Assembly: GCF_039822205.1 (NCBI RefSeq)
Contig: NZ_JBAGBW010000003.1
Location: 47,983 to 111,982, forward strand
Origin: Thermodesulfobium sp. 4217-1
GTDB taxonomy: Bacteria > Thermodesulfobiota > Thermodesulfobiia > Thermodesulfobiales > Thermodesulfobiaceae
DNA: 64,000 nt
Direction of reading: 5' to 3'
Part shown: positions 49,898-64,000 of the stretch, piece by piece
Layout: the number at the start of each line of letters is the position of its first letter
Position numbering within the stretch: position 1 is the first letter of the stretch
The notes under the pieces: generated by a model
Seen by the model: the letters and a program-made list of their open reading frames with translations, nothing else
The model's database searches: none
What the model was told of the DNA's origin: nothing
Program-made: the position numbers and the translations under genes

Positions 49898-50503
49898 GTG
49901 TCTTACAAAAAAATTGTTCTAATGTTTGTATGCATTACTATATTTTTTTGCGGGAGATCCTTTGCAAATTGGGGGGATAGGACACACGAATATATTCTTG
50001 AGACTATAAATAATAGCGGTCTTTACAAAAGCTCACTTGAATATTCTAGTTCTTTTAAAGACAACAGCGATAACGTGTTAAAAATCAATCTAAGATCGGC
50101 TGCTCTTAGCTTAGATGAATCGTTGATTGAGAGAACCTTAGAATCGACTCCAGTCTCTTTAATGAATTCAAGAGAATATTTTCTTGCTGAGGGAATAAAG
50201 TATTACTTGCAAGGCAATTGGGCCCAAAGCATTGGCGCACTGAGTATTTGTATTGATAAAGATCCCCTTGATATTTATAGTTGGTATTATATGGCTAAAG
50301 ATTATGAATTGAGAAATGATTATAATAGCGCTAATTATGCTTATCAAAAGGCACTGTCAATAGATCCAAATAGCGTTGGTGTTTTGAAGAGCTATGCGAG
50401 ATTCTTGAATCTAGCTGGTTTAACTGATCAATATAAAGTTGTTAAAAATCACATTAAAGATATTTATTCGAGAGATAGCAATCTTGAGATATTTGGGAAT
50501 TGA
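49898..50503 (+). CDS. exported TPR-repeat protein
   Basis: 201-residue protein with an N-terminal signal peptide (basic SYKK, hydrophobic core, likely cleavage after RSFA near residue 23). The rest is helical, with TPR-like units at about residues 95-165 (YLQGNWAQSIGALSICIDKDP; SANYAYQKALSIDP). TPRs bind partner proteins; the partner is unknown. GTG start after AAAGGAGG. Its end overlaps ruvX by 20 bases. Confidence 0.75.
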   Translation: MSYKKIVLMFVCITIFFCGRSFANWGDRTHEYILETINNSGLYKSSLEYSSSFKDNSDNVLKINLRSAALSLDESLIERTLESTPVSLMNSREYFLAEGIKYYLQGNWAQSIGALSICIDKDPLDIYSWYYMAKDYELRNDYNSANYAYQKALSIDPNSVGVLKSYARFLNLAGLTDQYKVVKNHIKDIYSRDSNLEIFGN

Positions 50504-50900
50504 TTGGGGAGTTAGCCATCTGGGATTAAGCATAAGCGATCCTGATGAAAAGATTGTTTTTCCAATGGGTTCAATTACAAGAAACACCTGGAAGGAAGAC
50601 TTAATTAAAATTAAAAAAATAATAGAAGAAAAAGGCATACAGGCAATAGTTCTTGGAGACCCTATAAGGACAGATGTAGCTTCTGCTTCATCTAAGTCAA
50701 TTCTTAAGGTTAAGAGAAAATTGGAAACTTTGGGAGTTGGCGTTTTCCTCTTTGACGAAAGATATTCTTCTAAGGAGGCACTAAAACTTCAGGAGATTCT
50801 TGGCAACAAAGATAAAAATAAAGTTCATGAGATTGCTAGTTCGATTATTTTGAAGTCATATCTGGAACACAAAGCAAATGTTGCAAAGAACTTGGGTTAA
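50484..50900 (+). CDS. ruvX: pre-16S rRNA nuclease YqgF/RuvX
   Basis: RNase H-fold nuclease that matures the 16S rRNA 5' end, 138 residues. Seen: LGIDWGVSHLGLSISD, IVLGDPIRTD and FDERYSSKEA, with a C-terminal HEIASSIIL. I choose TTG 50484 (MRYLGIDWG); starts further upstream lie deep in the TPR gene. The ribosome-binding site is weak, suggesting coupling to the TPR gene. Confidence 0.88.
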   Translation: MRYLGIDWGVSHLGLSISDPDEKIVFPMGSITRNTWKEDLIKIKKIIEEKGIQAIVLGDPIRTDVASASSKSILKVKRKLETLGVGVFLFDERYSSKEALKLQEILGNKDKNKVHEIASSIILKSYLEHKANVAKNLG

Positions 50901-50913
50901 ATTAATATAGTCT

Positions 50914-51108
50914 ATGGATTTTTTAAAATCTATATCCTTCTTGCCTGAAAAGTGTAATATGTGTGGTAGGTGTTCTTTAGAGTGTCCTAGGGGTGTAATC
51001 TATCTCAATGGTTTTTTTAGGCCAATATTTGTTGACCTGTCAAGGTGCGATGCTTGTAAAAAATGCGAAAAAGTATGTAAAAATAATGCGATTGAGGTTT
51101 TATCTTAG
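50914..51108 (+). CDS. two-cluster [4Fe-4S] ferredoxin
   Basis: 64-residue ferredoxin with two C-x2-C-x2-C-x3-C motifs: CNMCGRCSLEC and CDACKKCEKVC. It carries low-potential electrons. The last base overlaps the GTG start of the CbiA-type gene, so the two products probably serve one pathway. Confidence 0.88.
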   Translation: MDFLKSISFLPEKCNMCGRCSLECPRGVIYLNGFFRPIFVDLSRCDACKKCEKVCKNNAIEVLS

Positions 51109-52490
51109 TGAAGAAAAATTTTAAAAAAATTTTAATTTCCGCTCCATTTGGCCGATCTGGCAAAACATCCTTTTCAATAGGACTAACTCGTGCGCTTTCA
51201 AGAAAAGGATACACAGTTCAAACTTTTAAAAAAGGGCCTGATTTTATAGATCCTAGCTGGCTTTCTATGTCTTCGGGAAGATCATGCAGAAATTTAGATT
51301 TATTTATGATGGATAAAGAAACAATTTTAGATTCTTTCATCAGAAACTCTTCTGATGCAGATATTTCAATAATAGAGGGGGCAATGGGACTCTATGACGG
51401 AATTGACTATTTGGGTACGGGTTCAACTGCTGAAATTGCAAAAATAATTGATAGTCCTATTCTCTTTGTTATGCCTGTTCAGAGAATAACAAGAAGTTGT
51501 GCCGCACTTATAAAGGGCTATGTCGAATTCGATAAAGAAATAGATATAAAGGGCGTAATACTAAATAAAGTTGCAAGAGACAGGCAGAAAAACTTAATTA
51601 TCAATGCATTGGAACACTATAATTTACCAGATGTCTTAGCCTCTTTCCCTAAGGATGACAAACGATTGTCCATTCCAGATAGACATTTAGGGCTAATACC
51701 TGCTAAAGAAAGATTGGAACTAAATTCTGTAATTGACAGATTTGCTGATGCTGTAGATGAACATATGAATTGGGATTTGTTTTTCGATATAGCCAAAGAT
51801 CCTGTAGAACCAATCAGTAAGCTTATTGATAATCTAACTGGATACGATCTTTTGTCTGACGTTAAGATTGGTATTTTACAGGATATATCTTTTTCATTTT
51901 ATTACCCTGAAGTATTTGATTTTTTGAAAATGTCAGGTGCAAAAGTAGAAATCATAAATTCTTTAACGGATAAGCGTCTTCCAGATATAGATGTGCTTTA
52001 TATTGGCGGAGGGTTTCCTGAAGTTTTTGCTAAAGAGCTTGAGGGAAATGATTCGCTAAGGAGATCTATTAAGGATTTTGGCGAGAACAATAATCCAATT
52101 TATGCTGAATGCGGCGGGTTAATGTATTTATCTGATTTTATTGAAAACGACGGTAATAAATATAATATGGTTGGGCTCTTGCCATTTGGCATTCATATGG
52201 ATAAAAAACCTGTGGGACATGGTTATGAAGAGGTTGAGGTATTTGAAGAGAATCCATTTTTCCCAAAAAGGACAAGGATTAGAGGACATGAATTTCACCA
52301 TAGCAGCGTATCTATGAATAGAAGTGAAGATATTAAATTTTCTATGAAAGTTCTTAGGGGAAATGGCATAATGAATAAACTCGATGGCGTGGTGTATAAA
52401 AGGGTTATGGCATCATATCTTCACATTCATCCATTAGGTTTTAAAGATTTTATAGCCGATTTGCTAAAGTCTGCATGTATTTCTAAGTAG
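51108..52490 (+). CDS. cobyrinate a,c-diamide synthase family amidase (CbiA/CobB; possibly DsrN-like)
   Basis: 460-residue glutamine-dependent amidase. N-terminal ATPase domain with a P-loop (SAPFGRSGKTS) and FKKGPDFIDPSWL; C-terminal class I amidotransferase domain with nucleophile Cys in YAECGGLMYL and the final HIHPLG. Family members amidate side chains a and c of cobyrinate; the DsrN branch of sulfate reducers is thought to amidate siroheme. No other cobalamin gene is near. A coupled ferredoxin precedes it. Family is firm, substrate open. Confidence 0.85.
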   Translation: MKKNFKKILISAPFGRSGKTSFSIGLTRALSRKGYTVQTFKKGPDFIDPSWLSMSSGRSCRNLDLFMMDKETILDSFIRNSSDADISIIEGAMGLYDGIDYLGTGSTAEIAKIIDSPILFVMPVQRITRSCAALIKGYVEFDKEIDIKGVILNKVARDRQKNLIINALEHYNLPDVLASFPKDDKRLSIPDRHLGLIPAKERLELNSVIDRFADAVDEHMNWDLFFDIAKDPVEPISKLIDNLTGYDLLSDVKIGILQDISFSFYYPEVFDFLKMSGAKVEIINSLTDKRLPDIDVLYIGGGFPEVFAKELEGNDSLRRSIKDFGENNNPIYAECGGLMYLSDFIENDGNKYNMVGLLPFGIHMDKKPVGHGYEEVEVFEENPFFPKRTRIRGHEFHHSSVSMNRSEDIKFSMKVLRGNGIMNKLDGVVYKRVMASYLHIHPLGFKDFIADLLKSACISK

Positions 52491-52536
52491 AGCAAGACGA
52501 TTGACTTTTCTTGTTTTTAAGATATTAAATTTAGTG

Positions 52537-52542
52537 TATAAT
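52537..52542 (+). promoter_or_regulatory. candidate -10 box for the small membrane protein
   Basis: TATAAT at 52537-52542, 32 bases before the TTG start at 52574. TTGACT at 52501 is too far away to pair with it. Confidence 0.3.
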
Positions 52543-52573
52543 ATTATATGATTTTTTTTGGAGGTGGAGGGTC

Positions 52574-52885
52574 TTGGACCGCAAAGAACATTTTGTAAAG
52601 ACAGGAAGAAAGCTTATGCTACCTGCATCGTTTGTGTATATTGTGTTTTTTCTATTTAGTTTATTTTTTGCTATGAGAAGGTTTGATTCTTTTGGTTGGG
52701 GGACTTTAAGCTGTGTTTTTTGGATTTTGATTGTTTTATCAGTAGTTTTTACTAAAGATCTCTTCGTAAAATATTTTCTAGCTCTATTGGAGAAGGTTTC
52801 TTTTTCAATTGCCAGGCGCTTTAATTTGCTTGCTGGAGATATTAACTCAAACGAATATTGTGATTCGGAAGTTATCGAAAAGTAG
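52574..52885 (+). CDS. small membrane protein of unknown function
   Basis: 103 residues; I do not recognise the family. A basic N-terminus is followed by two hydrophobic helices (about residues 16-34 and 44-62), then an amphipathic segment and an acidic tail (ending SEVIEK). TTG start after GGAGGTGG. Its stop abuts the stop of the convergent LysE gene. Confidence 0.6.
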   Translation: MDRKEHFVKTGRKLMLPASFVYIVFFLFSLFFAMRRFDSFGWGTLSCVFWILIVLSVVFTKDLFVKYFLALLEKVSFSIARRFNLLAGDINSNEYCDSEVIEK

Positions 52886-53503
52886 TTAGATTGATATCAG
52901 ACTAATTATTCCAAAGCCCAAAATTACCAGGGCTGAGAGCTTGTTTACAAGAACGAGATTATTTTGACTTAACTTTTCGCGCATTAAGTTTGTTGTTGAA
53001 CAAAGAATTATCCACCAAAAAGTTGAGCCTAAAAAAACTCCGATAGTTGGAAATATTGAATAGCTAAATTCTATATTGTTATTGAACAAACCGACCCCTG
53101 CAAAGATAGCCCCAAATGATAATATTGTCATTGGATTGATTACTGTTAAAAAAAGAGTTGATAAGTATGAGCTAATAAATCCTATGCGTGATTCTTTTTT
53201 TGAATCCTTTACTGGTATTGATTTAAAAATAGTATAACCAAGATAGATTAAAAATATCCCCCCTACTAAGTGAATAATATATTGACTGTCAAGGAGCCAT
53301 TTTGATATTTTTGAGATGCCAATTATCGCTAAAAAAGAATATGCACTGTCAGCAGTTGCAGCTCCCAATCCTGATATAAGACCATTTGAGAGCCCATTTG
53401 ATAAGGTTCTTTTTATGCAGAGTATGCTTATCGGTCCAATTGGGGCTGCAACTGAAATTCCTATAAAAAACCCTTTAGTTAAGAAAGACAGATTAGACAA
53501 CAT
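52886..53503 (-). CDS. LysE/RhtB-family amino acid exporter
   Basis: 205-residue membrane exporter with about six helices. The N-terminal motif FFIGISVAAPIGPISILCIKR is the family signature, followed by GLISGLGAATADS. Substrate is likely an amino acid or derivative. It overlaps the upstream Lrp-type regulator gene by 11 bases, so the regulator probably controls it. Confidence 0.85.
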   Translation of the reverse strand: MLSNLSFLTKGFFIGISVAAPIGPISILCIKRTLSNGLSNGLISGLGAATADSAYSFLAIIGISKISKWLLDSQYIIHLVGGIFLIYLGYTIFKSIPVKDSKKESRIGFISSYLSTLFLTVINPMTILSFGAIFAGVGLFNNNIEFSYSIFPTIGVFLGSTFWWIILCSTTNLMREKLSQNNLVLVNKLSALVILGFGIISLISI

Positions 53504-53954
53504 TTACATTAACTGGAAGCGATGAGACTTCTTTTACGGTTGATAGAACTACCATTGTTTTTGTTTTTATACCAGCTATAGATTTAAGTTCGTTGCTGAT
53601 AATTTTTTCTAAATCATTTGTATTTGAACAGCGGATCTTAACCATGTAGTCAGCGTCTCCAGTAATATGATAACACTCTAAGATCTCTGGTATAGTTTTA
53701 GTTTTTTGTAAAAAGTAGGCTCTTCCTTCGGGATTTTCTATTGTGATAAATATCAAAGCTGTTAATCCCAATCCAACCATATTGGGATCGATTATTGCTG
53801 AATATCCCTTTATAACCCCTGAAATTTCCAATTTATGAACCCTCTCTGCTGCTGCGGGAGGTGACATATTTAACAAACTTCCTAACTGGGACCAGGATGA
53901 ACGGGCATTTGACATTAGCTCCCTTATAACTTTTAAATCAATGTTATCTAACAT
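53493..53954 (-). CDS. Lrp/AsnC-family transcriptional regulator
   Basis: 153-residue feast/famine regulator: N-terminal HTH (LDNIDLKVIRELMSNARSS; SPPAAAERVHKLEISGVI) and C-terminal RAM ligand domain (GLTALIFITIE, CYHITGDADYMVKI). ATG 53954 has AGG 6 bases upstream; the in-frame ATG 53972 lies within a perfect palindrome that is probably an operator. It is followed by a LysE exporter, a common regulator-target pair. Confidence 0.9.
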   Translation of the reverse strand: MLDNIDLKVIRELMSNARSSWSQLGSLLNMSPPAAAERVHKLEISGVIKGYSAIIDPNMVGLGLTALIFITIENPEGRAYFLQKTKTIPEILECYHITGDADYMVKIRCSNTNDLEKIISNELKSIAGIKTKTMVVLSTVKEVSSLPVNVNVV

Positions 53955-53964
53955 AAAAAACCTC

Positions 53965-53987
53965 ATAATCATAAGTATTATGATTAT
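53965..53987. promoter_or_regulatory. perfect 10-bp inverted repeat, candidate Lrp-family operator
   Basis: ATAATCATAA (53965-53974), spacer GTA, TTATGATTAT (53978-53987). The dyad lies 11 bases upstream of the chosen lrp start, where autorepression sites are often found. The arms match perfectly over 10 bases, though the region is AT-rich. Confidence 0.65.
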
Positions 53988-54033
53988 AATAGATTGTTTT
54001 TGAAACTATGTCAAGGATACAGGTTAAATGGCG

Positions 54034-54507
54034 TTATGGTTTTCTTTTACATTTAGGGCACATAGACAAATGTTTTGGGATTGGTTTTCCCTCACCAAAC
54101 AATTTGTTTGCTATAAGCGTCATATCTGGTATAAAGGCGTCACATTTTGCGCACTTTATAAGGTTTATTTGATGATCGACCTTAAAATCATCGAGATTGG
54201 TGGTAACAAAATATGGGTTTGGCATGTGCTTTATTGCATTAGTAGGACAATAATCTATACACTGTCCACAACAGGTGCACTGATCTAAGTCCATATGATA
54301 GTTTATTTTGTCATCTATCTGTGATATTTTTATAACCTTTGCCGGGCAAAAGTACTGACATATACCGCATGCAATACATCTGGTGGGATCGTGTTCTGGA
54401 TAGCCGTGAAATCCCTTTGGATGCTTTGGCAAGTTAACACTCGATATATCTTCTGTTATGGGTGGCTTAAAAATATTCTCAATTAAGATTCTTATCAGTG
54501 GAAGCAT
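54034..54507 (-). CDS. hydrogenase-complex ferredoxin subunit (NuoI/HyfH-like) with C-terminal Cys-pair domain
   Basis: 157-residue peripheral-arm Fe-S protein. Two [4Fe-4S] motifs, CIACGICQYFC and CTCCGQCIDYC, match NuoI/HycF/HyfH. The C-terminal part adds CAKC and CPKC pairs, which may form a zinc ribbon or another metal site, as in some group 4 hydrogenase subunits. It is the last gene of the eight-gene complex, 24 bases after the NuoH-like gene. It would pass electrons from the HycB-like subunit toward the NuoB-like cluster. Confidence 0.85.
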   Translation of the reverse strand: MLPLIRILIENIFKPPITEDISSVNLPKHPKGFHGYPEHDPTRCIACGICQYFCPAKVIKISQIDDKINYHMDLDQCTCCGQCIDYCPTNAIKHMPNPYFVTTNLDDFKVDHQINLIKCAKCDAFIPDMTLIANKLFGEGKPIPKHLSMCPKCKRKP

Positions 54508-54531
54508 GGCGTCTCCTTTCTAATATACAAT

Positions 54532-55473
54532 TTAAACATGTGTGAAAAATGCTAATAAAAGCCCTAATATAGAAATTGGCCAGGTAAATTTTACAAATAT
54601 ATTAATTGCCTGATTAAGCTCAATTCTTGCTGTTGCGGCTTCTAATAATGAGAGCAGCGATGCGAATACAAAGCATATTAATATTATTGAGATTAATATA
54701 AGATTTGTTGGTATGATGAATATTGGTAAAAATAGATAAGAAAATAAAAATCCCAAAATAACCCACTCCATAAAATGCGAGATTTCAAAAAGCGCAAGGG
54801 CAGGCCCGCTTGCCTCTACCGTAGGTCCCTCCAATATTTCTTGTTCAGCATTTGGTATTGAAAAGGGATTAAGCTTTAGCTTCGCAAGTGAACACAAAAT
54901 AAATATCGGAATAAATATGATTTTTAAAAAGATTGATGTGGTATTAAAACCCTTTGCAGCAAGGTCAAATAAATTAAAAGTTGGGGATCCGTTTACGCTA
55001 AAAGCTAGTGCCGTAATGATCAATATCATTGGCACGTTGTATGCAAAAAGAAGTTGGGCCTTTCTTGATGCTCCTATTTGACCAAATATAGAGTTCGTAA
55101 AGTATCCAAATAAAAGATAACAAATAGTAGGCACTTCAGAGAGATAAAATATTACTATAAGATCGAATGGTATTTTGTGTGAGTTAAACTTGACAAATGG
55201 TAATGGAATAGGAAAAAGAGAGAGAGCAATTGATATGGACACTACGCCTATAATTGGGGTTATAAAATACAGAACCCATGGCATATTTTCTGGGATTAAG
55301 GTTTCTTTGCTAAATAACTTTATAATATCGTAGAAGCCTTGTGTCAGTGGAGGACCAATTCTAAGCTGCATTTTTGCCTTTAACTTTCTTCTAAATGAGT
55401 CCATAAGACCTCCAAGCAAGAATGAAAAGAGAAAACCGGGAAAAATTAAAATTGAAAGTATATATGAAATCAT
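54532..55473 (-). CDS. hydrogenase membrane subunit, NuoH/HyfC-like
   Basis: 313-residue integral membrane protein with about eight helices. The loop QLRIGPPLTQGFYDIIKLFSKE corresponds to the NuoH/HycD quinone-site loop, in the IGPP form usual in group 4 hydrogenases. A second conserved segment (ILEGPTVEASGPALALFE) is also present. It couples the soluble arm to the ion-pumping subunits. ATG overlaps the NuoB-like gene by 4 bases. Confidence 0.88.
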   Translation of the reverse strand: MISYILSILIFPGFLFSFLLGGLMDSFRRKLKAKMQLRIGPPLTQGFYDIIKLFSKETLIPENMPWVLYFITPIIGVVSISIALSLFPIPLPFVKFNSHKIPFDLIVIFYLSEVPTICYLLFGYFTNSIFGQIGASRKAQLLFAYNVPMILIITALAFSVNGSPTFNLFDLAAKGFNTTSIFLKIIFIPIFILCSLAKLKLNPFSIPNAEQEILEGPTVEASGPALALFEISHFMEWVILGFLFSYLFLPIFIIPTNLILISIILICFVFASLLSLLEAATARIELNQAINIFVKFTWPISILGLLLAFFTHV

Positions 55474-55892
55474 CTTCCCTCCTTAAAAACCTCTATGGCT
55501 TTTTGTAATCCCAAAAATATATTCTTAGGATGAGCAGAGCATCCTCCGACATAAGCGGTTACAGGAATTAAATTATGGGCAGGACCTACAATGCTATATC
55601 CATCTGTAAATACCCCAGAACTTATAGAACACGCGCCAATGCACACAATTACCTTTGGGTTTGGCAGCATATCGTATATTCTTAAAAGAGGTTCCTTAGA
55701 TCTTGCTGTTACAGGGCCAGTGACCAGACATATATCTGCATGCTTTGGGCTGCCAACTAATTTGCAGCCCAGTCTCTCTACATCGTATCTTGATGCAAGA
55801 AGAGCTACAATTTCTATGTCGCAGCCATTGCAAGAACCTGTATTCAAATGAAACAACCAGGGTGATTTACTTCTTCCAATCTTAAAAATCAT
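55470..55892 (-). CDS. hydrogenase small subunit, NuoB/HyfI-like
   Basis: 140-residue protein carrying the proximal [4Fe-4S] cluster next to the NiFe site. Cys ligands: GSCNGCD, GACSISSG and GGCSAHP. This is the short single-cluster form of group 4 hydrogenases and complex I. It lies 1 base after the NuoN-like gene and overlaps the NuoH-like gene by 4. Confidence 0.9.
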   Translation of the reverse strand: MIFKIGRSKSPWLFHLNTGSCNGCDIEIVALLASRYDVERLGCKLVGSPKHADICLVTGPVTARSKEPLLRIYDMLPNPKVIVCIGACSISSGVFTDGYSIVGPAHNLIPVTAYVGGCSAHPKNIFLGLQKAIEVFKEGR

Positions 55893-55893
55893 T

Positions 55894-57183
55894 TTAATTT
55901 ACCACCTTAATCAAGCTATTGATGACGTTTATTAAATAGTTTGGGTATATACCAAAATATAAAATTGCTATACATAAAATTGTGAGCGAGATATTTGTAA
56001 CAAATTTTTCTTCAAAACTTATCTTGTTTTTTGCCATGCTTTCTTCACTTCCCCAAAAAATTTTATGATAGGCACGGATATAGTAAATAAGAGTCAAGCA
56101 GCTTGCAATAATTAGAAAGATGCTAAGCAACAAGCTTTTATCAAAAGCTGCCTGATAAAGTAACAATTTTCCAGAAAAACCAGGCAAGAAAGGAGCGCCT
56201 ATTAGGCTAAGTGAGAAAATCAAAAATGTTATTGATAAAAATGGATATTTTTTTGCAATGCCGCTTAATTCTGATATATTTGTGGTGCAAAAAATACTTT
56301 CAATTTTGTCAGTTATAACGAATAGCCCAAATTTTGAAACAGAATGATTTATTAATATTATTATGGCTGCGATTAATCCTAAACTATTTCCAATTGCAAG
56401 CGCTAAAAGAAAGTAGCCGGTGTCATCAATTGTCGAATAAGAGAGAAGTCTTTTTAGATCTTTTTCAAGGTATGCCATTATTGCTCCGACAACAATTGAT
56501 AATATTGCCACGAAGAACAGTATATTGTTTAGATCTTGATATGTTATAAATGATATCGACTTAACTTCTTGCAATATGAAGAACAATAGGTAAAAGTCTA
56601 TTACTTCTCCGACACATACAACTGCAGATGATATTATAGGATTTGTGATGCTAACGAATTTTGGTTGCCACCAGTGAAATGGTGTGGCAGCTAACCTTAA
56701 AGATATTGCAATTATAGCTAGAAGGCCAGTAAATGAAATAAAACTTGTGCTATTTAAAATAAAAAGTAAATAATAGATTATGTTAACAATAAAATATATT
56801 TTGTAAGAGTTAAAAGATTTAATTTTCATAAATAGGAAGCCAAATGTTATTAAACTTAAGAGTTCTAACACAATGCTGTAAAGCAATGCATCGTGATTTA
56901 AGAGTGCGAATAACTGAAAGATAAATGCTATTACGTACAAAGGTGAAACTGATTTCTCGAAATCCTTAACTGACAATATGATAGAAATCATAGCAGAGAC
57001 GATAAATACCGTTATTATAAAAAATGCCCTTAAGTCAAAAGGTGAAAAAATTCCTAAGTTAATTAGATCGTATCCTAATGAAGAAAATGCAATCAAAACT
57101 AATATAAATCTTATAATTTTATTTTTTGCATTTGAAAGTAATATTAGACATATTGCTAATAATAAATCAGATATTAATACCAA
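55894..57183 (-). CDS. hydrogenase antiporter-like membrane subunit, NuoN/HyfF-like
   Basis: 429-residue integral membrane protein with about 12-14 helices, of the Mrp/complex I antiporter family. Conserved features: a Lys-bearing helix region (YLEKDLKRLLSYSTIDDTG), HSVSKFGLF and FLPGFSGKLLLY. Expected to translocate H+ or Na+. It lies 15 bases after the NuoL-like gene. Assignment to the N versus M type is uncertain. Confidence 0.83.
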   Translation of the reverse strand: MVLISDLLLAICLILLSNAKNKIIRFILVLIAFSSLGYDLINLGIFSPFDLRAFFIITVFIVSAMISIILSVKDFEKSVSPLYVIAFIFQLFALLNHDALLYSIVLELLSLITFGFLFMKIKSFNSYKIYFIVNIIYYLLFILNSTSFISFTGLLAIIAISLRLAATPFHWWQPKFVSITNPIISSAVVCVGEVIDFYLLFFILQEVKSISFITYQDLNNILFFVAILSIVVGAIMAYLEKDLKRLLSYSTIDDTGYFLLALAIGNSLGLIAAIIILINHSVSKFGLFVITDKIESIFCTTNISELSGIAKKYPFLSITFLIFSLSLIGAPFLPGFSGKLLLYQAAFDKSLLLSIFLIIASCLTLIYYIRAYHKIFWGSEESMAKNKISFEEKFVTNISLTILCIAILYFGIYPNYLINVINSLIKVVN

Positions 57184-57198
57184 GTTAACACCTCCTTG

Positions 57199-59085
57199 TC
57201 ATCTAACTAGTTGGACAATAGCTATTACTATTATCATTGAAACTATGCTCGTCACCAGCCACATCTCGTTTTCAAGCCACTTTATAGGTATATATATAAT
57301 TTCAAATGCAGTTTTTAACAAATCATTTGAAAAGTCATACCACTTGTCAGAATCTGTAAATCTGTAAAAGTTTTTTGAAAGGCTTTCAACATCGAATATG
57401 TAATCAAATGCATTGATGTTTTTTAATGAGCTTGTTTTTACCTCTCCACCGGTAAAGCTTTGAACTCTTTTGAACTTTTTGTTTGTGGCGAAAATTATTA
57501 TGATAGGAGCAAAAATAGCCACTATTGCGAATATGGCGGTAAAGCTTGCAAGGTAGCCTCCTCCAGAGGATAACAAGACCCCTAGGTTAAAGTTGAATAT
57601 TTCCTGGTTTAAATTTAAGTTAAGGCTATGAAGAGCTGGAACAAGAAGATATGAAATCAAAAATTGCGGCAATATTCCAATTAGTATGCAAAAGATTGCG
57701 AGCAGAGAAATTGAGAATATTTCAATTTTATATTTGCCTTCTTGTATATTTTTAAATTCTTCTTTTTGGAATCCAAAAAAGGCTGTTGAAGATGCCTTTA
57801 TGAAAGAAAGCAGGGTAAGAGTGCTTGCAATAAGACCAATAGCCGCAGCAAATGGATAATTTGCTTGAATTGCTGCATAATAAAACATCCATTTACTTAT
57901 AAATCCATTAAAACCCGGCACGCCTGATATTGAAAACGATCCTATAAGAAAGAGGGCAGCTGTAAATGGAAGTTTTTTAAAAAGTCCACCCATCTTTGTA
58001 AGGTCTTTGCTGCCTGTAGCGTTTTGCATTATCCCAGAGCATAAAAATAGAGTGCATTTAAATAGCCCATGATTAAGCGCGTGAAAAAGTGCGCTTGCAA
58101 TCCCAAGGGGGGTTCCAAGTCCAATTCCCGCAACCATATATCCAATTTGAGATACGGTATGAAAGGCAAGAAGTTTTTTTATCTCTGTCTGTTTTAGCGC
58201 ATACATTACGCCAATTAGTGATGTTAACGAGCCTACAGTAACTATCAGTGCGTTCCATGGTAGCGGATAGGGATACAATATTACATACATCTTTACAAGG
58301 ATATACACACCAGCTTTAACAAGGCATGCAGCATGTAAAAGTGCGCTAACAGGAGTCACAGTGTTCATGGCGAAGGGTATCCATGTGTGAAGCGGCCATT
58401 GAACAGATTTTGCCATACATGCAATTAATATTCCTAGAAGGATTATATTGGTATATATGCCAAAACTACTTCCTTCAAGTTTTGAGATAATTAGATTTCC
58501 ATGTGTACAATATGCAATAGCAATAATACCAAGTAACAGCCCGTATCCAGCAATGTGTGTCATAAGATATGCCTTTTTCGCAGAGTAGCTTGAAAGATCT
58601 CTTTCATACCAAAAGCCGATTAGTTGATAAGAACAAAGTCCAATAAGTTCAAAGAAAATATACGTCCAGATTAAATTATCACTCAATACTACTCCAAGAT
58701 ATCCACCAATAAAGAGCTGCATAAGACCAAAAAATCGGCCCATTCCATTTTTTTCGTGAGACATATACTCAATAGAATAAATGCAAACGCAAAAACTAAT
58801 AAAGGATCCAAAAAGTGCAAAAAATAAGTTAATTCCATCGGCTCTTAGTATTAAGTTCAAATTAATAATGTTGAAAAGGTTTTGGCTGAAGGGACTGGTA
58901 GAAAAAGGATGATTAATAAAATTTATGCAAAGGTATATTATGGTTAGTAAAGAAATTAGAGAAGTAATTATCGAAATAGATCCATGAAACTTGCGCGAAT
59001 TTATTTTGTGAAATAGGAAAGAGATTATACTTCCAGAAAAAAGAATTCCTATGCTTAGAAAAATTATAAAATTTTTGTCTAACAA
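57199..59085 (-). CDS. hydrogenase antiporter-like membrane subunit, NuoL/HyfB-like
   Basis: 628-residue integral membrane protein with about 15-16 helices. Landmarks of NuoL: MSHEKNGMGRFFGLMQLF, FFELIGLCSYQLIGFWYER (conserved Glu), HTWIPFAMNTVTPVSALLH, KKLLAFHTVSQIGYM and HALNHGLFKCTLFL. The C-terminal part includes two extra helices but no long lateral helix can be proven by eye. Second ion-translocating unit of the complex. Confidence 0.88.
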   Translation of the reverse strand: MLDKNFIIFLSIGILFSGSIISFLFHKINSRKFHGSISIITSLISLLTIIYLCINFINHPFSTSPFSQNLFNIINLNLILRADGINLFFALFGSFISFCVCIYSIEYMSHEKNGMGRFFGLMQLFIGGYLGVVLSDNLIWTYIFFELIGLCSYQLIGFWYERDLSSYSAKKAYLMTHIAGYGLLLGIIAIAYCTHGNLIISKLEGSSFGIYTNIILLGILIACMAKSVQWPLHTWIPFAMNTVTPVSALLHAACLVKAGVYILVKMYVILYPYPLPWNALIVTVGSLTSLIGVMYALKQTEIKKLLAFHTVSQIGYMVAGIGLGTPLGIASALFHALNHGLFKCTLFLCSGIMQNATGSKDLTKMGGLFKKLPFTAALFLIGSFSISGVPGFNGFISKWMFYYAAIQANYPFAAAIGLIASTLTLLSFIKASSTAFFGFQKEEFKNIQEGKYKIEIFSISLLAIFCILIGILPQFLISYLLVPALHSLNLNLNQEIFNFNLGVLLSSGGGYLASFTAIFAIVAIFAPIIIIFATNKKFKRVQSFTGGEVKTSSLKNINAFDYIFDVESLSKNFYRFTDSDKWYDFSNDLLKTAFEIIYIPIKWLENEMWLVTSIVSMIIVIAIVQLVR

Positions 59086-59103
59086 ATTTCTCCTCCTTTA
59101 CTC

Positions 59104-59523
59104 TTATTCTGTAGAAATTGTTGCTGCCTGTTCGATTGCCCCTGTTGGACAGGCCTGAGCGCACGCAGCAACGAAATTATTTTTTTCACAAAGATTACAT
59201 TTTTGAGCTATTATTTTTACATAATGTGTGCTTTGTCTTGATATCATTTCGATTGCGCCAAATGGGCACATATAGTAGCAAGTTTTACAGCCAACGCATG
59301 CATCAGGATTTATATCAATTACTCCCTTTCTCCTATCTATAGCTTTTACAGGGCAAACCTTTTCACATATTCCACACATTGTGCAATATGTGATTTTGAA
59401 GCTTTCTGTAGATTCATTTTTTGATATAAAAATTCTTGGTTGAGATGAATTGTTTATTTCTTTGCACGCATCCATACATTTTTGACATCCAATACATTTT
59501 TTTTGATTTATTCTAAGTCTCAC
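59104..59523 (-). CDS. HycB/HydN-like four-cluster ferredoxin subunit
   Basis: 139-residue protein with four [4Fe-4S] motifs: CIGCQKCMDAC, CTMCGICEKVC, CVGCKTCYYMC and CNLCEKNNFVAACAQAC. This is the HycB/HyfA/CooF type, which takes electrons from formate dehydrogenase or CO dehydrogenase in known group 4 complexes. No such dehydrogenase is in the window, so the electron donor is open. ATG 59523 lies 9 bases after the large-subunit stop. Confidence 0.88.
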   Translation of the reverse strand: MRLRINQKKCIGCQKCMDACKEINNSSQPRIFISKNESTESFKITYCTMCGICEKVCPVKAIDRRKGVIDINPDACVGCKTCYYMCPFGAIEMISRQSTHYVKIIAQKCNLCEKNNFVAACAQACPTGAIEQAATISTE

Positions 59524-59532
59524 ATCTTCCTC

Positions 59533-60630
59533 CTATCTTTGAGTACATGAGAGGCATGGATCTACGCTGGCAACTATTAAGGTAGCATTTGCCAAATCGT
59601 TATTGGGCAGCATTGCTGAGAGGGCTGGAAGATTGACAAAGCTCGGGGCTCTAATCTTGTGCCTAAAGGGAACATCCGAACCATCAGATACCAGAATGTG
59701 AACGTCCTCGCCCCTTGGCGCCTCATGCCTACCTATTGCTGTACCTTCGGGAATTATTGGTCTAATTTCTTTAGCAATTGGGCCATCTGGCATAATTTTT
59801 AGAAGTTCTTTGATAATGTGTATGCTTTCCAAAATTTCTAAGAGCCTCACTTCTACTCTTGCAAAAACATCACATCCATCAGAGACGATTACTTGCCAGT
59901 CGACCATGTCGTAAGCAGCTCCTGGCTCGTCAACTTTTCTAATATCTTGTGGCATTCCAGATGCTCTTGCGACAGGTCCTACGACTGAATATGTAATTGC
60001 ATCTTCTTTTGTGAGGACCCCAACCCCTTTGGTCCTGAGTTCAATTGTTTTGTCATTCATAACTACGTCAATAAATGATTTGCAATCTTCTTCCACTTCG
60101 TTTAATACCTTAAAAATTTGTTCTAAATCTGTAATATCCCTTCTTACTCCGCCTATCGTATTAAACGAATAGTTTGCTCTGTGCCCGGTGGTTAATTCCA
60201 TTAGATCTTTTACTTTTTCCCTCGAATTCCATATTAAATAAAATACGCTTATAAAACCAATTACATGTGCTGCTATTCCTGCCCAAAGAAGGTGTGAATG
60301 AATTCTTTCAAGTTCGCTAACTACTGTTCTTAAACATTTAGCTCTTGGGGGTACGTTAACATTTCCAAGTTTTTCTACTGCCTGGACCCAGGCCATTGGA
60401 TGGGTCATACTTCATATTCCGCAAACTCTTTCGACAAGTGGAATTATTTGCCAGAAATTTTTGGTTGCAGATAGATATTCAATACTGCGATGTACGTGAC
60501 CTAAATCTATTGTAGCGCTCTTTATTCTGGAACCTTCTGCTTCAAGAGTGTATGTGGCTGGTTCTTCGAGGGCTATGTGAATAGGCCCAATCGGTAGAGA
60601 AAAACCCTTTTTTATCTCACTTTCAGACAA
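59533..60630 (-). CDS. group 4 [NiFe] hydrogenase large subunit (NuoD/HyfG-like) with in-frame UGA, predicted selenocysteine
   Basis: Read through one TGA (60412-60414) this is a 365-residue catalytic subunit. Residues 68-73 are RVCGI-U: the L1 motif RxCGxC has its first Cys at 70 and TGA as codon 73, where the second Cys belongs. The frame continues without a break into SMTHPMAW, ELERIHSHLLW, RHEAPRGE and ends with an intact L2 motif DPCLSC (Cys359, Cys362) plus TQR, with no C-terminal extension. Without readthrough there would be two useless fragments (72 and 291 residues). A SECIS-like hairpin lies 23 nt downstream. A nonsense mutation or sequence error is the alternative. It overlaps the NuoC-like gene by 8 bases. 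Confidence 0.8.
60380..60393 (-). promoter_or_regulatory. SECIS-like hairpin downstream of the in-frame UGA
   Basis: On the coding strand GCCTG-GGTC-CAGGC forms a perfect 5-bp stem with a GGUC loop. The loop begins 23 nt after the UGA, within the 16-37 nt range usual for bacterial SECIS elements, and opens with GG as they require. The E. coli fdhF SECIS loop also contains GGUC. A weaker outer TCCAA/TTGGA pairing is possible. Confidence 0.6.
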
Positions 60631-61087
60631 TTTTGTCCTCCTGAACTTTATTTTTTCTTATTAAAATTTTTTCTGTTTCTTGTTTAAGAAGAGGCATTTT
60701 TAATTCTTTTTGTGATGTAAGTAGAAGTCCATTTTTTACGTCTTTATTGTCAGTAAAATCAATGCCAAACATTTCAAAACACTCACTTTCTCCCCAATTG
60801 GCATTTGGATATATTGAAGTTATACTGTTATATGTGGCAGGGAGGTTTTTCTTGAATTGGAATGAAAATAAATGACCCTCAATATCGTATAGATTTTCCA
60901 AAATTATTGATTTTTCATCTTCAAGATCCAAATGCGCATTGACCAGCACGAACCTTGCATCAATTGACCTCATCACAATAGCAATTTCTAAAGGATTTTC
61001 GTCAGTGGTGTTTCTATAAATGCCTTTGTCTAAGACACAGGAATTTTTGATCTTTTCAAAGATAATGCTTAAGTTTTGTTTTTTCAT
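60623..61087 (-). CDS. hydrogenase subunit, NuoC/30-kDa-like
   Basis: Short (154-residue) homologue of the complex I 30-kDa subunit, which in HycE/HyfG is fused to the large subunit but is separate here. The signature is YPNANWGESECFEMFGIDF near residues 112-130. I start at ATG 61087; the in-frame ATG 61108 adds seven residues and cannot be excluded. First gene of the eight-gene hydrogenase run; it overlaps the large subunit by 8 bases. Confidence 0.8.
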   Translation of the reverse strand: MKKQNLSIIFEKIKNSCVLDKGIYRNTTDENPLEIAIVMRSIDARFVLVNAHLDLEDEKSIILENLYDIEGHLFSFQFKKNLPATYNSITSIYPNANWGESECFEMFGIDFTDNKDVKNGLLLTSQKELKMPLLKQETEKILIRKNKVQEDKIV

Positions 61088-61299
61088 AAAGTTACTCTCG
61101 CCCCTCATTAAAATTTATTTATAAATATTACTTTTTTATAGCAATGCATTTCATAATCATTTTATAATAAAAAATACTTATTTTTTAATAAATTAAATTT
61201 ACTAATTTCTTAGACAATTCTAAATTTTCTCAATCTTGTAAATGGTTACACTTTTAAGTTAATTTAGTAAAATTCATAAATAGTTAGGAGGTAAATTGA
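61088..61299. other. AT-rich divergent promoter region (hydrogenase operon / fumC)
   Basis: About 210 AT-rich bases between two divergent transcription units. Several TATAAA/TATAAT-like boxes point toward the hydrogenase genes but none has a convincing -35. No ORF or RNA gene seen. Confidence 0.5.
61245..61273 (+). promoter_or_regulatory. candidate fumC promoter
   Basis: GTTACA (61245-61250) and TAAAAT (61268-61273), spacer 17, 26 bases before the fumC ATG; TTAGGAGG ribosome-binding site follows. Confidence 0.35.
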
Positions 61300-62673
61300 A
61301 TGAATTTTAGAGTTGAAGAAGATGTGATTGGTCAGGTAAGGATCCCAGAAGAAAAGCTTTGGGGGATTCAAACTCAAAGGGCTATTGAGAACTTTAAAGT
61401 TGGGAATGAAGTTATGCCATTTGAAATTATTAAGTCTCTTGGTATAGTGAAGAAGGCTGCTGCAAAGGCGAATTTGAAGTTAAAAATTCTTGAAGAGAAA
61501 AAGTCTAAAGCGATAGTTGAAGCAGTCAATGAAATAATTGACGGAAAATTCCTTGATCAATTTCCATTGCATATATGGCAAACTGGCAGCGGAACAAGCA
61601 CTAATATGAATATAAACGAAGTTATAGCAAATAGGGCTAATCAGATTCTAAAGGAAAATATTGTAGATCCTCATGACGACGTTAATATGTGTCAAAGCAC
61701 GAATGATATTTTCCCTACTGCAATGCACATTGCCTTTGTATCGGAAATTAAAAAATTTCTTTTCCCTGCACTGGATAAATTTAGCGAGACTCTTAAGGAT
61801 AAATCAAGTCAATATAAAAATATAATAAAAGTAGGTAGGACTCACCTTCAAGATGCCGTCCCTATAACTCTTGGCCAAGAGATTTCTGCTTGGCAGACAA
61901 TGATTGACAGGTCGAAAAGCATGATTGAGAGTTCATTGGATCAATTAAAGGATCTGGCTCTGGGTGGTTCAGCTGTTGGCACAGGATTGAACGTTCATCA
62001 TGGTTTTGAAGATATCGCTGTTAGGGAAATAAATAAAATTACGGGTGAAAATTTCTCTCCATCGGCAAATAAGTTTTACTCTTTGAGTAGCAGAGAACAA
62101 ATAGTATTTTCACATGGTGCTTTAAAATCTCTTGCAACCGATCTCATGAAGATTGCAAATGATATTAGGCTGTTGTCAAGCGGACCAAGATGCGGTATAG
62201 GTGAAATCTCTATTCCTGCAAATGAGCCAGGCAGTTCAATAATGCCTGGAAAGGTTAATCCAACTCAGTGTGAAGTAATTACAATGGTTGTTTGCCAGAT
62301 ATTTGGGAACGACTTAACAATCTCTTTTGCTTCTAGCCAAGGAAACTTTCAATTAAATGTTTTTGCACCGGTAATTGCTTATAATTTTTTGCAATCTGTA
62401 AAGCTTTTATCTGATTCAATAAGCTCATTTGATAACAAGTGTGTGAAGGGCCTCACTCCAAATATTGAGAAGATAAATTATTATCTGAAAAATTCTCTTA
62501 TGAGTGCTACCTTTCTCAATCCATATATCGGTTATGATAAAACAGCGAATGTTGTAAAGGAAGCTTTTACAGAGAATATATCAATAAAAGAGGCTGTTTT
62601 GAAGCTTGGATATTTGGAAGAGAGTGAATATGACTTACTTTTTGATTTAAGAAAAATGGTAGGATTGGAATAA
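61300..62673 (+). CDS. fumC: class II fumarate hydratase
   Basis: Interconverts fumarate and malate, 457 residues. WGIQTQRAIENFK, TGSGTSTNMNINEV, GRTHLQDAVPITLGQE and the signature GSSIMPGKVNPTQCE, whose TQCE ending points to fumarase rather than aspartase. Oxygen-stable type without an Fe-S cluster. Monocistronic, bounded by a strong terminator downstream. Confidence 0.95.
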   Translation: MNFRVEEDVIGQVRIPEEKLWGIQTQRAIENFKVGNEVMPFEIIKSLGIVKKAAAKANLKLKILEEKKSKAIVEAVNEIIDGKFLDQFPLHIWQTGSGTSTNMNINEVIANRANQILKENIVDPHDDVNMCQSTNDIFPTAMHIAFVSEIKKFLFPALDKFSETLKDKSSQYKNIIKVGRTHLQDAVPITLGQEISAWQTMIDRSKSMIESSLDQLKDLALGGSAVGTGLNVHHGFEDIAVREINKITGENFSPSANKFYSLSSREQIVFSHGALKSLATDLMKIANDIRLLSSGPRCGIGEISIPANEPGSSIMPGKVNPTQCEVITMVVCQIFGNDLTISFASSQGNFQLNVFAPVIAYNFLQSVKLLSDSISSFDNKCVKGLTPNIEKINYYLKNSLMSATFLNPYIGYDKTANVVKEAFTENISIKEAVLKLGYLEESEYDLLFDLRKMVGLE

Positions 62674-62677
62674 AATT

Positions 62678-62702
62678 TAGGGTGCAAATTTCTTGCACCC
62701 TA
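62678..62702. terminator. bidirectional intrinsic terminator between fumC and the MFS gene
   Basis: Perfect 10-bp stem TAGGGTGCAA / TTGCACCCTA with loop ATTTC, flanked by A/T-rich tracts on both sides. It lies between two convergent genes and can end both transcripts. Confidence 0.85.
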
Positions 62703-62708
62703 GTAAAT

Positions 62709-63944
62709 TTACTGTAATTCTTTGCCCATTGTTTCTGGCAAGAAAAATATTAAGATCGCACCGAGAAAGAAAAAGATAGAAGTAATTGTTAGTGACGCGC
62801 CAAGACCATAGCTAATAGCAAAGAAACCTACTACTGTAGGAGCAAATGCGCTTAGCGCTCTGCCTGTATTGTAGGTGAAGCCTACCCCTGCACCCCTTGC
62901 TTTTGTGGGGAAGAGTTCTGAGATGAATGCTCCAAATCCGCTAAAATACCCTGATCCAAAGAATCCAAGGAAAGGACCGAGCAACATTAGCGTATTAGCA
63001 TCCTTTGTGTGTCCATAAAAATATACCAAAATTGCTGATATTATGAGGTAAAAAGAAAATGTAGGTCTTCTTCCCAATCTATCTGCTATAAATCCAAAAC
63101 TAACGTATCCTAAAAAGGCACCGACCATAGTTGGCATCATAAAGTTCGAACTCTTTACTATACTAAGTCCTGCTCCGCCTTTTTCTACTGGAGAGCTTAA
63201 AAATCCAGGTAGCCAGACAAATAATCCCCAATAAGCAAACATAACTGCTGAGCTAATTAAAGTGGTAATTAATGTATATCTAAGCAGGTATGGCTTAAAT
63301 ATTTCTACAAATGAAGACAGAAAAGCTCTGTTCTTATCAGTTTTCTCAATCCATATCTTTGGTTCATCTACAAATTTTGTTACATAAAATATAAATAGAG
63401 CTGGAAGTATGCCTATAAAGAAAAGTACCCTCCATCCATGTGCTGGAATAACATAAGCAGCTACTAATGCGGCTAAGAAGTAGCCTATCGCCCAACCGCT
63501 TTGCATAATGCCTATTGCCTTTCCTCTGTGTTTGGTTGGCCAAGATTCGCTTACAAGCAGGGCACCAGTAGCCCATTCGCCGCCCATTCCCAGTCCAAGA
63601 AGAGTTCTTGCTATTGCAAGCTGCCAAATGTCTTGAGAGATACCGCTTAAACCAGAACAAATTGAAAATATTAATACAGTTGACATCAAAGCCTTTTTCC
63701 TACCAATTTTGTCGGCGACAATGCCCCATATTATACCGCCAACAGCTGAAGAAAGTAGAGTAAGTGAAGCCAAGAGTCCTAAAATTGCGGTGTTTATGGA
63801 CCACTCTTTCATGATACTTGTGAGAGCGAAGGCATAAAGCATAACATCAAATGCATCTAACCCCCATCCCATAAAACCTGCAAAAAGAGAATACCACTGG
63901 CTTTTGTTGATCTCTAAGTACCATGGAACGCTTTTTTCTGACAT
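62709..63944 (-). CDS. MFS transporter, metabolite:H+ symporter type
   Basis: 411-residue major facilitator with 12 predicted helices. Motifs: GWGLDAFDVMLYA in helix 1, GIVADKIGRKKA in loop 2-3, LGLGMGGEWATGALLVSE in helix 4-5 and ADRLGRRPT in loop 8-9, typical of the aromatic/carboxylate MHS-like carriers. Substrate unknown; the neighbouring fumarase makes a carboxylate a fair guess. ATG 63944 is 6 bases after AAGGGGTG and preferred over 63962. Confidence 0.82.
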   Translation of the reverse strand: MSEKSVPWYLEINKSQWYSLFAGFMGWGLDAFDVMLYAFALTSIMKEWSINTAILGLLASLTLLSSAVGGIIWGIVADKIGRKKALMSTVLIFSICSGLSGISQDIWQLAIARTLLGLGMGGEWATGALLVSESWPTKHRGKAIGIMQSGWAIGYFLAALVAAYVIPAHGWRVLFFIGILPALFIFYVTKFVDEPKIWIEKTDKNRAFLSSFVEIFKPYLLRYTLITTLISSAVMFAYWGLFVWLPGFLSSPVEKGGAGLSIVKSSNFMMPTMVGAFLGYVSFGFIADRLGRRPTFSFYLIISAILVYFYGHTKDANTLMLLGPFLGFFGSGYFSGFGAFISELFPTKARGAGVGFTYNTGRALSAFAPTVVGFFAISYGLGASLTITSIFFFLGAILIFFLPETMGKELQ

Positions 63945-64000
63945 AGTTTGCACCCCTTCCACTATAAAAATTATTATAATAATACCATTAAGCGTTAGAA
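63945..64000. other. upstream region of the MFS gene, window edge
   Basis: 56 AT-rich bases holding the MFS ribosome-binding site; a TATTATAAT-like stretch near 63970-63983 could be its -10. No further feature visible. Confidence 0.35.

Follow-up and report, generated by a model that had tools for sequence, protein, structure and literature searches.

Natural [NiFeSe] hydrogenases (HysA, FrhA and MvhA/VhuA/VhuU) use a UGA-encoded selenocysteine (Sec) for one of the four Cys residues that bind nickel, and the position concerned, the first Cys of the L2 motif, is a terminal Ni ligand. In the available part of the May 2026 catalogue of prokaryotic selenoproteins, hydrogenase alpha subunits (FrhA, MvhA/VhuA/VhuU) carry the motif UxxC, the only hydrogenase subunits with CxxU are FrhD/MvhD/VhuD, and no Sec form of the L1 motif is included (PMC13188914). 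The corresponding part of a 2022 catalogue gives the same UxxC motif for the alpha subunits (PMC9312934), and an L1 Sec form is named in none of the available sections of three further papers (PMC1794560, PMC11227280 and PMC11291895). Sec has been placed in L1 by engineering: in E. coli Hyd-1 and Hyd-2 it was substituted for the Ni ligands one after another, among them the second L1 Cys (HybC 64), and the four Hyd-2 variants with Sec at HybC 61, 64, 546 or 549 were all active according to the available part of that report (PMC11212049). Those enzymes were artificial and TAG-encoded, whereas the predicted Sec described here is natural, UGA-encoded and conserved, and occurs in hydrogenases of groups 4 and 3. 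Because the engineered Hyd-2 variants are active, a bridging Sec is chemically plausible; because they exist, the L1 Sec, which a sequence-only reading of this DNA had held to be undescribed as a bridging selenolate, is a novelty among natural enzymes only, judging by the literature searched. Deep-Sep credits a Thermodesulfobium MAG with four known selenoprotein genes; the word "hydrogenase" is absent from the available part of its main text, and the gene studied here may already be in its listing under another name (PMC12013277).

The locus lies in the window, by which we mean the whole 64,000-nucleotide stretch of Thermodesulfobium DNA that was analysed. Its features are as follows.

59533..60630, minus strand: gene for the large subunit of a group 4 [NiFe] hydrogenase; 365 codons, one of them an in-frame TGA (TTG start at 60630, TAG end at 59533)
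60412..60414, minus strand: TGA, codon 73, predicted Sec (TGA in 4/4 genomes of the genus)
60400..60429, minus strand: L1 motif RVCGI-U-SMTH (frame translation, pattern match)
59545..59562, minus strand: L2 motif DPCLSC, both Cys intact (translation and alignment)
60380..60393, minus strand: candidate SECIS hairpin GCCUG-GGUC-CAGGC, 23 nt from TGA to loop, identical in four species
60623..61108, minus strand: NuoC-like subunit, 161 aa (Complex1_30kDa)
59104..59523, minus strand: polyferredoxin subunit, 139 aa (Fer4 family matches)
57199..59085, minus strand: NuoL-like antiporter subunit, 628 aa (Proton_antipo_M and Proton_antipo_N)
55894..57183, minus strand: NuoN/M-like antiporter subunit, 429 aa (Proton_antipo_M; best NCBIfam match NDH_I_N)
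55470..55892, minus strand: NuoB-like small subunit, 140 aa (Oxidored_q6)
54532..55473, minus strand: NuoH-like membrane subunit, 313 aa (NADHdh)
54034..54507, minus strand: NuoI/HycF-like ferredoxin subunit, 157 aa (Fer4 matches; PRK12387, formate hydrogenlyase iron-sulfur subunit, below cut-off)

The complex I-like partner set expected of a group 4 [NiFe] hydrogenase is present across 54034-61108. The large-subunit frame reads ...PLVERVCGI before the TGA and SMTHPMAWV... after it, with L2 in the context DPCLSCTQR. In a HMMER alignment, the TGA occupies the column of the second L1 Cys of Pyrococcus MBH (MbhL, 6cfw_L) and E. coli formate hydrogenlyase (HycE, 7z0s_E), the best sequence matches among solved structures; both the placement of the TGA at exactly this Cys and the intact L2 had been claimed from the letters, and both are borne out. 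Residues 70, 73, 359 and 362 are invariant Cys columns in a 30-protein alignment that the query entered with C for U, and the L1 CGxC and L2 DPCxxC ligand set is complete (C70, U73, C359 and C362) if the TGA encodes Sec. The natural [NiFeSe] enzymes have Sec at the first L2 Cys (UxxC; PMC13188914, available part), whereas here the second L1 Cys is affected and L2 reads DPCLSC, which places the protein outside the classical [NiFeSe] definition. MbhL and HycE have Cys at the site. So does Ech2 (Ech2E) of Thermoanaerobacter kivui, with CGIC, which is the closest named protein among the matches listed (56% identity over 291 post-TGA residues) and the sister in our tree. CGIC is found in 117 of the 120 matches listed; of the other three, one breaks off at the TGA and two escaped the search expression. 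As a separate observation, the window's large subunit (59533-59562) ends right at DPCLSCTQR, without a C-terminal extension, and the proteins of a second clade described below continue past DPCFSCTER.

By this alignment, selenium at residue 73 would bridge Ni and Fe. Sec might instead be inserted without bridging in the working site, for example as only a terminal or displaced ligand, a reading that gains from our literature search having found no structure of a natural L1-Sec hydrogenase. However, the other three predicted ligands and the neighbouring invariant residues are kept in the large subunit, and the predicted model has the HycE fold, HycE being its top match, so we consider a non-bridging selenium improbable.

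The bridging reading presupposes that UGA is decoded as Sec, and the search for Sec machinery proposed with the sequence-only reading was answered in full: the bacterial selenoprotein gene set selA, selB, selC and selD is complete in the genome (2.0 Mb in 69 contigs; window GC 35%). Its tRNA-Sec scores 76.1 bits with anticodon tca, the gene for SelB (626 aa) begins just behind the tRNA-Sec gene, selA is present, and selD, above cut-off, has its own in-frame TGA. The selD frame reads ...RCAG-TGA-AAK... in the window's genus (loci L074-L077, genomes G000-G003, of which G000 is the window's) versus ...KCAG-TGA-ASK... in G048 (L078), a genome of the second clade; given this ...CAG-TGA-A.K... context, SelD is itself a predicted selenoprotein. 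The hairpin downstream of the selD TGA has the loop AGGUG, which resembles the GGUC of the hydrogenase gene. Elsewhere TGA is an ordinary stop, ending 5 of the 37 window ORFs of at least 250 aa, so TGA is not simply reassigned and a change of genetic code is ruled out. Some bacteria are known to have opal suppressor Cys tRNAs, and such a tRNA, reading UGA as Cys or another residue, would leave an ordinary [NiFe] site. But the only tca-anticodon tRNA among the tRNA-like matches read is tRNA-Sec, tRNA-Cys has the anticodon gca, and under suppression the hairpin behind the TGA would be purposeless; we therefore regard suppression, too, as very unlikely.

The hairpin itself was found as it had been described, with 5 bp and a GGUC loop 23 nt after the TGA (GCCUG-GGUC-CAGGC at 60393-60380). 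The published bacterial SECIS model, in the part available, has a loop of 3-9 nt with G in the first two places and a stem of 4-16 bp, lies 16-37 nt after the UGA, and has a minimum free energy of at most -7.5 kcal/mol (PMC13188914, Fig. 2 legend). A fold check had also been proposed, and its outcome was mixed: loop, stem and spacing are within these limits, but the hairpin alone reaches -6.8 kcal/mol against the -7.5 limit, and the 53 nt downstream of the TGA are not unusually stable (z +0.5). Among the 15 codons that follow the TGA, the genus shows a change in 1 of 12 degenerate codons, versus 117 of 350 gene-wide (P 0.05); equally little change is seen in 34 of 350 windows of the gene. The joint usage in the window of the hairpin codons GCC, GTC and CAG, chosen after the hairpin had been seen, is 0.005. 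An Rfam scan of 50000-64000 gave no match above gathering scores. Taken by itself, the RNA evidence from the window's own genus is thus modest. We observed, in addition, that one Cys form (L018, genome G070) has a similar hairpin, GCCUG-UGUU-CAGGC (-14.1 kcal/mol), behind its L1 TGC; it is either a SECIS relic or chance, and because of it the window hairpin may partly follow from the protein sequence.

A clear RNA element came from the second clade. When 98 genomes were searched with the protein, 79 gave a match, and one more of them, G048 of another family, had TGA at this codon. Genomes were then searched with the pattern RxCGx-TGA-xxxH, with the reversed pattern as control. Of 386 genomes, 12 contained the pattern, in 8 cases within a real hydrogenase gene and in 4 within a short chance frame; the control matched 2 of 386, and the pattern therefore exceeds chance. 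In the phylum of G048, a different one from that of the window, it occurred in 16 of 82 genomes, 15 of them real, and the control in none. Matches L046, L047, L048, L054, L071 and L072 were discarded as short chance frames, and G053, flagged with one TGA, was rejected as a complex I-like sequence without the L1 CxxC. At E 1e-100, the same 82 genomes gave 20 HycE-like matches, comprising 15 with TGA (65-100% identical to the query, which is included) and 5 with Cys (44-46%). L2 reads DPCFSC in 13 of the 15 TGA genes and is masked in the other two. Synonymous variation at codons +4 to +12 after the TGA is 0.058 versus a gene mean of 0.53 in 14 genes (the masked L068 left out), a minimum among 254 windows that none of 20000 random sets reached, and these frozen codons fold into ACAGUAC-GG[G/C]-GUACUGU or a variant with a 5-nt loop. 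A tRNA-Sec above 60 bits was found in 10 of the 15 TGA genomes versus 39 of the 67 others, so that it is uninformative as a discriminator within this phylum; in the remaining 5 TGA genomes, none was found among the 45 candidates scored per genome. As for the codon preceding the TGA, Ile is encoded by ATA in the window (60415-60417, minus strand) and in 14 of 14 aligned genes of the second clade (L056-L070), where nearby Ile codons are mostly ATC; ATA possibly belongs to the UGA context.

The frozen codons bear on whether translation terminates at the TGA and re-initiates, yielding two polypeptides, the second from the ATG two codons after the TGA. Such an ATG is present in the window and in G003, and VhuU provides a precedent for a large subunit split elsewhere. 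However, the bridging ligand would be lost, and the start codon is unconserved, L057 having GTA and L068 and L069 GTT where others have GTG. A group 3 gene (L049) has no start codon in the nine codons inspected after the TGA, and re-initiation would also have to contend with the freezing of codons +4 to +12 in the second clade. We judge it quite unlikely.

Group 3 provides a third lineage with TGA at the same L1 position. Two genomes, G131 (L055) and G201 (L049), have CGV-TGA-PGAH in Mvh-like large subunits with L2 intact (TGA near locus position 1500), and they are the only ones to match among the genomes searched of their respective phyla (1 of 2 and 1 of 6). Their hairpins, GGCUU-CGGGUA-AAGCC and GGCCU-CGGGUA-AGGCC, are one compensated pair apart. 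An FlpD/MvhD gene adjoins the G131 large-subunit gene, with NuoF-, NuoG-, HdrA- and MvhG-like neighbours recognized by eye, and a database protein 86% identical to the G131 subunit reads CGVC. The maturation gene hypD, the only Hyp gene searched, is present in G131 and in G000-G003; it was not found in G201, a genome 83% complete. Hairpins of -6.2 kcal/mol or below followed the site in 15 of 18 Sec forms versus 2 of 20 Cys forms, the other three Sec forms having weaker ones (-3.9 kcal/mol). These counts cover 18 of 21 real Sec loci (L059, L062 and L068 were dropped as near-copies or masked) and 20 of 30 Cys loci (L031-L040 were unmatched by the search expression).

In the window's genus, the orthologue comparison that had been suggested as a check found TGA rather than Cys at codon 73 in all four genomes examined, representing four species and including two single-contig assemblies, and Cys in the nearest named relative, T. 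kivui Ech2E. A MAG contig (L010), which may be of the same species as G002, has TGA at the same codon; a contig-level scan for relatives gave one relative only. These occurrences rule out an assembly or sequencing error. Pairwise dN/dS in the genus is 0.07-0.10 downstream of the TGA and 0.014-0.148 upstream. Thus, a nonsense mutation or sequencing error that ends the subunit at residue 72 and leaves the hydrogenase dead, for which one could cite the ordinary TGA stops of 5/37 long window ORFs, can be set aside as very improbable in view of the TGA in 4/4 congeners, the constraint downstream, the intact L2 and the same TGA in two unrelated groups.

In the tree, the four Sec proteins of the window's genus group with Cys proteins including T. 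kivui Ech2E (support 100), and the second clade of group 4 Sec proteins branches with another Cys clade (support 98). The tree comprises 112 rows, computed in quick mode, with one gene entered twice (L027 and L096); it leaves out the majority of the other proteins listed, as well as 12 of 50 loci (L031-L040, L099 and L110) and 8 of 82 proteins tried, which the search expression did not match. The two group 4 clades thus have separate Cys sisters, and with group 3 included, L1 Sec appears to have been gained three times; descent from an ancestral Sec is possible too, but at the greater cost of many losses. Among the clusters listed for the G048 enzyme, 33 of 120 start at the third codon after the UGA. 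For group 3, 23 of the 120 clusters listed start just after L1, a figure that is suggestive only, because a Met stands there anyway.

The proposal of Sec in L1 is upheld by the sel genes, by the TGA of the congeners and by the recurrence of this codon, with a hairpin behind it, in independent lineages. Its best evidence is the sel genes and the conservation in the window's genus, along with the well-marked RNA element in the second clade. We conclude that UGA codon 73 is likely read as Sec, which would give a bridging Ni-Se-Fe selenolate in a membrane-bound, energy-converting [NiFe] hydrogenase. SelB carrying Sec-tRNA-Sec would bind the GGUC-loop hairpin behind the UGA and insert Sec, and Hyp proteins would build the Ni-Fe(CN)2CO site on Cys70, Sec73, Cys359 and Cys362. 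The complex would pass electrons between ferredoxin and H2/H+, with the NuoL-, NuoN- and NuoH-type subunits moving ions, and Sec might make it easier to repair the enzyme after oxidation, or might tune the Ni-Fe site. More broadly, it is likely that these enzymes form a natural second class of selenium hydrogenases with a Ni-Se-Fe bridge, gained at least three times (two gains in group 4, one in group 3) and hidden in databases by gene callers that cut at the L1 UGA.

What is understood of natural selenium hydrogenases has come from a single position, the terminal L2 ligand, which is also a proton relay. If the L1 Sec is confirmed, selenium would help also at a ligand other than this relay, and these organisms would offer native enzymes for testing the effects of a Ni-Se-Fe bridge on H2 bias, overpotential and recovery from O2. 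It would also mean that databases contain the products of many hydrogenase genes in truncated form, as the 33 of 120 clusters listed for the G048 enzyme suggest.
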